NCBI GenBank assembly: GCA_949451265.1
Contig: CASTQR010000124.1
Coordinates: forward strand, 1 to 5,276
From: an uncultured Eubacteriales bacterium
GTDB taxonomy: Bacteria > Bacillota_A > Clostridia > Oscillospirales > Oscillospiraceae
Reading direction: 5' to 3'
DNA: 5,276 nt
In this document: positions 2,234 through 3,994 of the stretch, one piece after another
Layout: each line of letters starts with the position of its first letter
Position numbering within the stretch: position 1 is the stretch's first letter
Notes under the pieces: generated by a model
The model's input: only the letters and a program-made list of their open reading frames with translations
What the model was told of the DNA's origin: nothing
Databases searched by the model: none
Made by a program: the position numbers and the translations under genes

Positions 2234-3994
2234 TCAGCCCTCCTGTTTTCCGCCGTCCTGGAACTGTTTCAGGTAATCCCGGGCCAGGTCCAGAATCTCC
2301 TCCCGGTCGTCCTGAGACAGCCGTCCGCTCTGGTCGATCCGGGCGCACAGGTCCGGGGCCTCCTCCTCCAGGGCGAGCAGCAGCCCGGCGCGGAATTCGT
2401 CCATCCGGCTCAGCGGGACCTCCTGCATCACATGGTCCAGGGCGGCGGTGAGCACGATGACCTGCTGGTGTTGGGACAGGGGGGCATACTGGGGCTGGCG
2501 CAGAAGGCGCATCAGGCCCTGTCCATAGGCCAGTTGCCGTTTTGTGGCGTCGTCCAGGTCGCTGGAGAACTGGGTGAACACCTCCATCTCCCGGTACTGG
2601 GCCAGGTCCAGGCGGATGGCTCCGGCGGCGGACTTCATGGCTTTCGTCTGGGCGTCGCCGCCCACCCGGGACACGGACAGGCCCACGTTGACGGCGGGCC
2701 GCTGGCCGGAGAAGAACAGCTCGCTTTCCAGGAAGATCTGGCCGTCGGTGATGGAGATGATGTTGGTGGGGATATAGGCGGACACGTCCCCCGCCTGGGT
2801 CTCCACGATAGGCAGGGCGGTCATGCTGCCGCCTCCCAGTTCGTCGCTGAGGTGGGCGGACCGTTCCAGCAGCCGGGAATGGAGGTAGAACACATCGCCG
2901 GGGAAGGCCTCGCGGCCGGGGGAGCGCTCCAGCAGCAGGGAAAGCGCGCGGTAGGCAATGGCGTGCTTGCTGAGGTCGTCATACACGATGAGAACGTCCC
3001 GGCCCTGGTACATAAAATACTCGCCCAAGGCGCACCCGGCGTAGGGGGCGATATACTGCAAAGCGGCGGAAGCCCCGGCGGGGGCGGTGACGATGGTGGT
3101 GTACTCCATAGCGCCCCGGCGGGCCAGGTTCTCCGCCAACTGGGCCACGGAGCTGGTTTTCTGTCCGATGGCCACATAGATGCACACCACGTCCTTGCCC
3201 TTCTGGTTGAGGATGGTGTCCAGGGCGATGGCGGTTTTGCCGGTCTGACGGTCGCCGATGATGAGCTCACGCTGGCCCCGGCCGATGGGGAACATGGAGT
3301 CGATGGCCAGCAGCCCCGTCTCCATGGGGGCGTTCACCGGCTGGCGGTCCAGGATGCCGGGGGCGGGGGTTTCTACAGGGCGGTAGCCCTCCGGCTCGAT
3401 GGAGCCTTTGCCGTCCACGGGCAGGCCCAGCGCGTCCACCACCCGGCCCAGATAGCCCTGGCCCACGGGCATACCGGCGGTTTTCAGAGTCCTCCGGACC
3501 ATGTTGCCCGCGCAAATCTCCTCGCCGTCGCCGAACAGGATGCAGCTCAGCCCCTCGGGGCGCAGATCCTGCACCATGCCCTTCACGCCGGAGGAGAACA
3601 GCAAAATTTCCCCGTACTGGGCGTGGGCCAGCCCGCCCACGGTGGCGATGTCGCCGTCCACAGTGAGCACCTCGCCGATCTCCTCGGGAACGGGGGTGGG
3701 CTCCCAGTGCTCCACGGCCTGGCGCATGAGGGGGACGATGTCGTTTGCCCCGGGCTGGATGTGGCGCAGGTAGTCCTGGAACTGCCTCACCCGGCCGTCC
3801 AGGGTCCAGTCGTACACGTCGGACCCCACTTGAAGGCGGAACCCGTCCTGAAGGGACTCGTCAAACTCCCAGTGGAGGGGGATCTTGCGCTGATAGGTCT
3901 TGGTCAGGAACTGCTCGAAACGTTCAAGCTGCGCCCCGGTGGGCTGGTCGGCGCTGCGCAGTTGGGCGGTGAGGCGGCTTCTAGCGGCCCTCAT
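2234..3994 (-). CDS. atpA: ATP synthase subunit alpha with N-terminal delta-CTD-like domain (fusion)
   Basis: Non-catalytic nucleotide-binding subunit of the F1 head. Residues ~82-586 form a complete alpha of ordinary size (~505 residues): N-terminal helix NDIVPLMRQAVEHW, beta-barrel from ~104, P-loop GDRQTGKT at 247-254, VYDDLSKHAIAYR near 337-349, PGREAFPGDVFYLHSRLLER at 359-378, and the arginine finger Arg443 in VSRVGG. The GGGSMTALPI stretch is short, as in Bacillus, not the longer proteobacterial form. Residues ~5-80 are extra and match the C-terminal domain of subunit delta: a hydrophilic helix (AQLERFEQFLTKTYQRKIPL), then WEFDESLQDGFRLQVGSDVYD, then a closing helix GRVRQFQDYLRHI. Delta's usual pattern is VDPSLIGGxxVRVGDxVxDGSVRGRLERLRxxL. 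The start at 3994 is supported by a strong GGAGGGAGG site and overlaps the atpF end by 14 bases. The fusion is seen directly; its effect on stator assembly is inference. An internal start giving plain alpha (for example Met90) would cut into the N-terminal helix and I see no good ribosome site there. Confidence 0.96.
   Translation of the reverse strand: MRAARSRLTAQLRSADQPTGAQLERFEQFLTKTYQRKIPLHWEFDESLQDGFRLQVGSDVYDWTLDGRVRQFQDYLRHIQPGANDIVPLMRQAVEHWEPTPVPEEIGEVLTVDGDIATVGGLAHAQYGEILLFSSGVKGMVQDLRPEGLSCILFGDGEEICAGNMVRRTLKTAGMPVGQGYLGRVVDALGLPVDGKGSIEPEGYRPVETPAPGILDRQPVNAPMETGLLAIDSMFPIGRGQRELIIGDRQTGKTAIALDTILNQKGKDVVCIYVAIGQKTSSVAQLAENLARRGAMEYTTIVTAPAGASAALQYIAPYAGCALGEYFMYQGRDVLIVYDDLSKHAIAYRALSLLLERSPGREAFPGDVFYLHSRLLERSAHLSDELGGGSMTALPIVETQAGDVSAYIPTNIISITDGQIFLESELFFSGQRPAVNVGLSVSRVGGDAQTKAMKSAAGAIRLDLAQYREMEVFTQFSSDLDDATKRQLAYGQGLMRLLRQPQYAPLSQHQQVIVLTAALDHVMQEVPLSRMDEFRAGLLLALEEEAPDLCARIDQSGRLSQDDREEILDLARDYLKQFQDGGKQEG
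2239..2244 (-). promoter_or_regulatory. Ribosome binding site of atpG
   Basis: AGGAGG, 6 bases before the atpG ATG and embedded in the final codons of atpA. With the stop/start arrangement TGA-C-ATG it points to coupled translation of alpha and gamma. Confidence 0.8.
3755..3982 (-). other. Delta (OSCP) C-terminal-domain-like segment of the alpha fusion
   Basis: Codons ~5-80 of the atpA frame. In ordinary F1Fo enzymes the delta C-terminal domain binds the end of the b stalk, while its N-terminal six-helix domain binds the alpha N-termini. Here only the former is recognisable, including the diagnostic 'G-F/V-x-L/V-x-V-G-x-x-V-Y-D' strand pair (GFRLQVGSDVYDWTLDGRV). The usual GG before the strand is reduced to DG, and the usual D-G/A-S is DWT, so it is somewhat diverged. 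Boundaries are judged by eye and may be off by about 5 residues. A short PGA linker joins it to the alpha N-terminal helix. Confidence 0.85.

Follow-up and report, generated by a model that had tools for sequence, protein, structure and literature searches.

A natural fusion of the delta C-terminal domain to subunit alpha in an Oscillospiraceae F-type ATP synthase, a candidate for more than one peripheral stalk

RESULTS

An ATP synthase operon with an extended alpha gene

The window, that is, the whole stretch of 5,276 nucleotides analyzed here, contains on its minus strand most of an F-type ATP synthase operon in the order a-c-b-[CTD-alpha]-gamma-beta, with a and beta cut, where CTD stands for the C-terminal domain of delta/OSCP (Table 1). 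As stated in the initial annotation, the alpha frame starts about 80 codons early (ORF 3994-2234, 586 codons, positions 3755-3994 being codons 1-80) and has a strong ribosome site of its own, since the ATG at 3994 is preceded by the Shine-Dalgarno sequence GGAGGGAGG, 8 bases upstream. The end of the b gene and the start of the fused ORF overlap by 14 bases, and no separate delta gene lies between b and alpha in the window operon, the ends of which fall within a and beta. For the a subunit, NF004486 is the best NCBIfam match; it covers the C-terminal part only and is below its cut-off because the gene is truncated.

TABLE 1 Features of the window and of variant loci in relatives (CTD, C-terminal domain of delta/OSCP)
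Feature	Position or locus	Strand	Evidence
Beta subunit (atpD), truncated by window end	1..1321	-	NCBIfam TIGR01039, 737.8 bits (cut-off, 462.85)
Gamma subunit (atpG), 302 aa	1324..2232	-	Pfam PF00231, E 7.3e-85
Alpha proper, residues 86-586	2237..3739	-	TIGR00962 match and sequence
Linker HIQPGAND, residues 78-85	3740..3763	-	AF2 helices 65-78 and 86-97; 9jc1 alignment
Delta/OSCP CTD, alpha residues 1-77	3764..3994	-	Pfam PF00213, AF2, Foldseek/VIA
Shine-Dalgarno sequence GGAGGGAGG	4003..4011	-	Sequence; 8 bases before ATG at 3994
B subunit (atpF), 163 aa	3981..4472	-	Pfam PF00430, E 8.9e-14
C subunit (atpE), 118 aa	4491..4847	-	Pfam PF00137, E 1.8e-15
A subunit (atpB), truncated by window end	4881..5276	-	NCBIfam NF004486, E 2e-11; own HMM
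Full delta-alpha fusion	L101-L104, L119, L120, L131, L132, L134, L135
Tandem CTD-CTD-alpha	L109
Stand-alone CTD genes, 72-76 aa	L111:3712-3930, L112:3672-3890, L113:3709-3939, L138:3652-3870
Delta with two CTDs, 251 aa	L136:4399-5154	-
b-CTD fusion	L080, L115, L116
b-CTD plus CTD-alpha	L114
b'-CTD-alpha triple fusion, 748-812 aa; locus also has a short b gene of its own	L105-L108, L110, L118, L137
Gamma-beta single uninterrupted ORF, 767-769 aa	L080:7480-9783	+
Gamma-beta single uninterrupted ORF, 767-769 aa	L115:201-2510	-	TIGR01146 and TIGR01039, both above cut-offs
Gamma-beta single uninterrupted ORF, 767-769 aa	L116:216-2519	-
Stand-alone delta C-domain match, 74 aa, one in-frame TAG	G270:C11:111701-111916	-

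In the c subunit, a signal-peptide-like N-terminal stretch, ending by eye in AFA/ADA, precedes the two membrane helices; elsewhere c measures 72-78 aa (L101, L107, L112, L115, L074, L122), 96 aa (L081), or 101 aa (L127). Where the first helix of Na+-type c rings has Gln, c of the window has Met; the Glu-Thr and Tyr of the second helix are retained.

The extension as the b-binding domain of delta

The Pfam OSCP family (PF00213) matches residues 2-75 over positions 97-171 of its 172-position profile, with an E-value of 4.3e-9 for the whole protein and of 1.9e-10 when residues 1-97 are searched alone, and the NCBIfam delta models match only through their C-terminal part. The protein has the sequence and fold of the delta/OSCP C-domain and not both domains of the family; the delta N-domain is absent from the fused protein and from the window operon. 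AF2 predicts a beta-alpha-beta-beta-beta-alpha fold for the extension (core pLDDT, 84-87), which Foldseek/VIA matches to the C-domains of delta and OSCP. Searched as a profile, the domain finds its best PDB match in 9jc1_I, an engineered fusion (E, 1.9e-15), in an alignment that runs through the linker into the N-terminal helix of alpha. The linker, with the PGA noted initially at residues 81-83, joins the last helix of the CTD to the alpha N-terminal helix and, because alpha retains this helix, no new interface is evident. Alpha itself is full length and of the F type, residues 83-577 matching positions 4-500 of the 503-position model TIGR00962 with 698.9 bits (cut-off, 484.45), and its P-loop GDRQTGKT is intact. 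A delta C-domain and a full-length alpha thus lie in a single frame, the combination that characterizes a delta(deltaN)-alpha FoF1. The OSCP-family search and the predicted fold bear out the initial reading, and we consider it almost certain that what alpha carries at its N-terminus is the C-terminal, b-binding domain of delta.

The same architecture recurs widely, as 588 proteins match residues 1-100 at an E-value of at most 1e-3 and all of the 120 listed among them, the window's own included, combine PF00213 with alpha domains, most having a fused length of about 586 aa. The Pfam E-values, the 588 matching proteins, and the Foldseek/VIA fold matches led us to reject a chance match. When compared codon by codon and without gaps to 57 relatives having ORFs of 580-600 aa, the extension displayed a low pN/pS, indicative of purifying selection. 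Together with the Shine-Dalgarno sequence, the 14-base overlap with b, and the many relatives, this selection argues for a real gene.

Lack of a separate delta in most relatives searched

Canonical operons with delta between b and alpha were found at L081, L082, L121-L124, L126, and L127. At the related loci L001, L051, and L066, b overlaps the fused gene and an ORF is present 3' of beta, which leaves no room for delta; in L001, this ORF encodes epsilon (NCBIfam TIGR01216, 90.2 bits; cut-off, 67.25). We found a CTD-alpha locus in 16 of the 17 genomes searched, and a Pfam search, which strongly diverged delta N-domain genes would escape, yielded no full-length OSCP in 15 of these 16. One of the 15 is G007, the genome that contains L001; the alpha of L001 shares 94% identity with that of the window. 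Full-length OSCP is present in G015, which has CTD-alpha, and in G017, which has a b-CTD locus. In a survey of 200 genomes from the Flintibacter muris family, a stand-alone full delta was absent from 37 of the 43 genomes with CTD-alpha-type frames. Judging from these relatives, the genome that carries the window may well lack a separate delta.

Distribution and recurrence of the fusion

A genome scan recovered at least 80 loci, 78 of the 80 with the CTD-alpha fusion (alpha being truncated by the contig in 5 of the 78). The exceptions are L078 (Flavobacteriaceae), which is canonical and the only one of the 80 matched by our own HMM of the delta N-domain, and L080, a b-CTD form. Most of the 80 loci are labeled Oscillospiraceae, Oscillibacter, Lawsonibacter, or simply uncultured bacteria, Clostridia, or Firmicutes, and more distant loci come from MAGs labeled Christensenellaceae and Lachnospiraceae. 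Apparently cultured carriers are Flintibacter muris DSM 110149, Colidextribacter sp. OB.20, Pseudoflavonifractor sp. 60, Acutalibacter sp. 1XD8-33, and Neglectibacter sp. X58.

In the family survey, OSCP matches were obtained in 111 of the 200 genomes. We classified 110 of them by frame length, excluding G018, which falls under the family cut-off, and five weaker rows that belong to other genomes. With some genomes in two classes, a stand-alone full delta occurs in 53 genomes, CTD-alpha in 33, a CTD within frames of 730-830 aa in 10, full delta-alpha frames in 10, a CTD within frames of 220-280 aa in 5, CTDs standing alone in 3, and other or cut forms in 6. OSCP matches were found in 145 of 295 genomes at the level of the order, which for Flintibacter is Oscillospirales in GTDB, and in 171 of 291 at the level of the class. 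Since ordinary stand-alone deltas are the majority among the matches listed for the class-wide sample, the CTD-alpha trait appears to be concentrated in part of the class and not general.

On a tree from a quick search with 63 of the 115 alpha rows, the CTD-alpha label requires 7 changes, 6 of which are forced by well-supported branches. The CANON/FULLFUS labels of L125 and L102 were assigned by hand, since neither was hit by our N-domain HMM, which is based on a small number of sequences; Pfam OSCP covers 20-167 in L125 and 3-171 in L102; the domain alignment comprised 66 of the 68 domains, L055 and L058 being left out. These changes point to a recurrent trait with repeated origins. The initial suggestion that the fusion may mark a clade of Clostridia was therefore rejected, and natural cases such as Acidaminococcus had already been noted (PMC12229609). 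The group of the window is nested within a wider group, itself well supported, whose members include full delta-alpha fusions and some few canonical forms. This nesting suggests that, in the line of the window, the whole delta was probably fused first and the N-domain lost later, the quick tree leaving several forks open.

Variant architectures

The variants were verified on DNA for individual loci (Table 1). The stand-alone CTD genes lie between b and alpha and are devoid of an N-domain, and the delta of L136 has one N-domain followed by two tandem C-domains, possibly as an adaptor for two stalks. In the b'-CTD-alpha triple fusions, b' keeps a hydrophobic, membrane-helix-like segment in the six proteins checked (KD maximum, 1.96-2.47). 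Residues 1-280 of the triple fusion of L107 match 1178 proteins and 119 of the 120 listed contain PF00430, PF00213, and alpha domains; by this count, the triple fusion is common. The AF2 model (mean pLDDT, 59.6) shows only the order of the elements, a long helix and then the CTD. If the protein is not cleaved, the b':alpha ratio would be fixed at 1:1, and hence each enzyme would have three membrane-anchored stalks. Among the indirect arguments that this group has multi-stalk enzymes, the triple fusions, which belong to relatives and not to the window, carry the most weight.

DISCUSSION

In canonical F1Fo, a single delta sits atop F1. The central hole is plugged by the N-domain of delta, which also contacts the N-termini of alpha, and the b dimer is held by the C-domain. 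The N-domain breaks the threefold symmetry and limits the stalk to one, and the textbook enzyme indeed has one peripheral stalk. In the gene described here, the b-binding C-domain of delta is the N-terminus of alpha. Extrapolating from the F1Fo structure, every alpha would present its C-domain at the crown of F1, and each of these domains would grip the C-terminal end of a b dimer; docking of b by the fused CTD is very probable, the b subunit encoded by atpF being the expected partner. What the initial annotation had not pointed out is that three alphas are three docking sites and that the stalk-limiting N-domain of delta is gone. Given three copies of alpha and no N-domain, the enzyme could assemble between one and three b2 stalks, each together with an a subunit, and extra stalks would increase the H+/ATP ratio and allow ATP synthesis at low protonmotive force.

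This scheme has an engineered counterpart. Ueno et al. (2025) deleted the N-domain of delta in Bacillus PS3 and fused the C-domain to alpha, which gave a delta(deltaN)-alpha FoF1 with up to three stalks and three a subunits and an H+/ATP ratio of 5.8, versus 3.0, and the enzyme synthesized ATP at a protonmotive force insufficient for the wild type (PMC12229609). Three-stalk molecules were very few in cryo-EM, stalks were lost in grid preparation, and SDS-PAGE and the H+/ATP ratio gave an average of about two stalks (PMC12229609). The same text points out natural delta-alpha cases (Acidaminococcus fermentans, UniProt G4Q3K6, and A0A1I2C5T3) and proposes that multi-stalk enzymes exist in nature (PMC12229609). 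By analogy with this homologue, we propose, with rather more confidence than doubt, that the window encodes a natural delta(deltaN)-alpha F-type ATP synthase, the three alphas of which would accept up to three b2 stalks and raise H+/ATP; that more than one stalk is actually present per enzyme in vivo seems to us somewhat probable.

A different outcome of the same gene would be a single-stalk enzyme in which the fusion does no more than take over the anchoring role of delta, a first-bound b2-a unit or a scarcity of a and b leaving two of the CTDs empty and idle. We regard it as possible though rather doubtful. In its favor, F1Fo enzymes of textbooks have one stalk and the a, b, and c sequences of the window demand no more. 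The loss of stalks from the engineered fusion on cryo-EM grids (PMC12229609) is consistent with it as well, yet the average of about two stalks in an enzyme of the same architecture (PMC12229609) argues for several, and the triple fusions of the relatives are hard to reconcile with a single stalk unless the protein is cut. It is very improbable that the extension is missing from mature alpha, whether through proteolysis or an internal start, and acts as a free CTD or has no function. The stand-alone genes of L111, L112, L113, and L138 suggest that a separate CTD can work, and 50 of 58 sequences have Met at position 90; however, the other 8 have Ile there and Met90 of the window has no Shine-Dalgarno sequence, so that an internal start near residue 82-90 was rejected. 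The linker is also short, with 3 residues less than the engineered one, and most of the 120 relatives listed retain a fused length of about 586 aa.

We likewise give hardly any credence to a second, N-ATPase-like enzyme or to a gene order created by the assembly. Delta is absent from N-ATPases, and their b is longer (PMC5706428); a Clostridia unit eps-beta-gamma-alpha-b-c-a without delta is described in passages that make no mention of the domain fusion (PMC5709465). Membership in the N-ATPases was nevertheless rejected, as alpha scores 611.2 bits with TIGR03324 (cut-off, 750.5), compared to 698.9 with TIGR00962 (cut-off, 484.45), and the cut beta scores 581.2 with TIGR03305 (cut-off, 752), compared to 737.8 with TIGR01039 (cut-off, 462.85). 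The same fusion in 78 of 80 loci, from a scan that found at least 80, and the presence of residues 1-100 on several contigs at 99-100% identity argue against an assembly artefact.

The delta(deltaN)-alpha architecture that we favor for the window can be placed among known systems. The mycobacterial b-delta fusion, which includes an N-domain, joins delta to b and leaves alpha separate, whereas b of the window is a separate ORF of 163 aa; the initial annotation had already called the joining of the delta CTD to alpha a different solution to attaching the stator. Common to the two is a delta C-domain inside another stator subunit, with matching folds (PDB 7jg5, 7njk, and 8jr0). Canonical delta/OSCP (PF00213) resembles the extension in sequence and fold over its C-terminal half, but it has the N-terminal helical domain and is a separate subunit. 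The engineered PS3 fusion (PDB 9jc1) is similarly built, with delta residues 105-178 before the alpha N-terminus, no delta N-domain, and a separate b; in contrast, the fusion of the window is natural, has a linker region 3 residues shorter, and is known here from its sequence. With the fusion of A. fermentans, as described in PMC12229609, it shares the absence of the delta N-domain and the position before alpha, but its relatives are labeled Oscillospiraceae and kin and the trait is recurrent. The ATP synthase of Chloroflexus aurantiacus, to go by the chain counts of the PDB 9itj series (18 entries with a total of 72 b chains, 6 entries with 12 delta chains), seems to be naturally multi-stalk, with two peripheral stalks; the b of the window finds its best PDB match there, and the Chloroflexus enzyme differs in having a separate delta chain of 157 aa.

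The stalk has been reviewed (PMC6131620), and PMC12229609 is the sole paper on point in the literature searched, a scope that excluded most subscription journals and all preprints. The delta(deltaN)-alpha architecture is thus already known, engineered as well as noted in nature, and the window adds a member that its relatives place among the Oscillospiraceae. Within that scope, to which the supplement of PMC12229609 did not belong either, we did not find the Oscillospiraceae distribution, the repeated origins, or the tandem, stand-alone, and triple forms; nor did the literature searched contain the full delta-alpha, two-CTD delta, and b-CTD variants of the relatives.

A broader proposal, on which our opinion is evenly balanced, is that in the order of Flintibacter and in some other Clostridia, multi-stalk F-type ATP synthases are ordinary and have evolved repeatedly. 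The delta N-domain, which enforces a single stalk, would have been lost several times, leaving the C-domain attached to alpha or to b, free, in tandem copies, or inserted between b' and alpha. With the b'-CTD-alpha form, three membrane-anchored b' covalently fixed to three alphas would make an obligate three-stalk machine, and these anaerobes would make (or spend) ATP at protonmotive forces below the reach of a one-stalk enzyme. The number of stalks and of a subunits sets the ions spent per ATP, and a side-stalk grip built into alpha, and so present three times instead of as one separate piece, may permit ATP synthesis from a weaker gradient. With 588 matching proteins (120 listed) and 78 of the 80 loci listed by the genome scan, natural candidates for a multi-stalk enzyme are many, and in the b'-CTD-alpha of relatives the stoichiometry is written into the gene. 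The long-held rule of one peripheral stalk per bacterial F1Fo is now directly testable.

Further rearrangements were observed in the relatives. The stand-alone C-domain match of G270 contains an in-frame TAG, which may reflect a pseudogene, an error, or recoding. At the three loci with gamma-beta ORFs, where b-CTD fusions are also present, one reading frame thus joins a subunit of the rotor to one of the stator. All three linkers contain an internal beta ATG with GGAGG 8 bases upstream, suggesting that free beta is probably made too. In a search with gamma-beta, 50 of 60 matches had at least 54% identity and both gamma and beta-type domains, one of them being from Candidatus Avoscillospira avicola. 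Five weaker matches (P0297, P0298, P0301, P0302, and P0303; 32-35% identity) combine PF00231 with PF00306, the family of the alpha/beta C-terminal domain, P0302 having PF00213 in addition, and are possibly alpha-gamma fusions.
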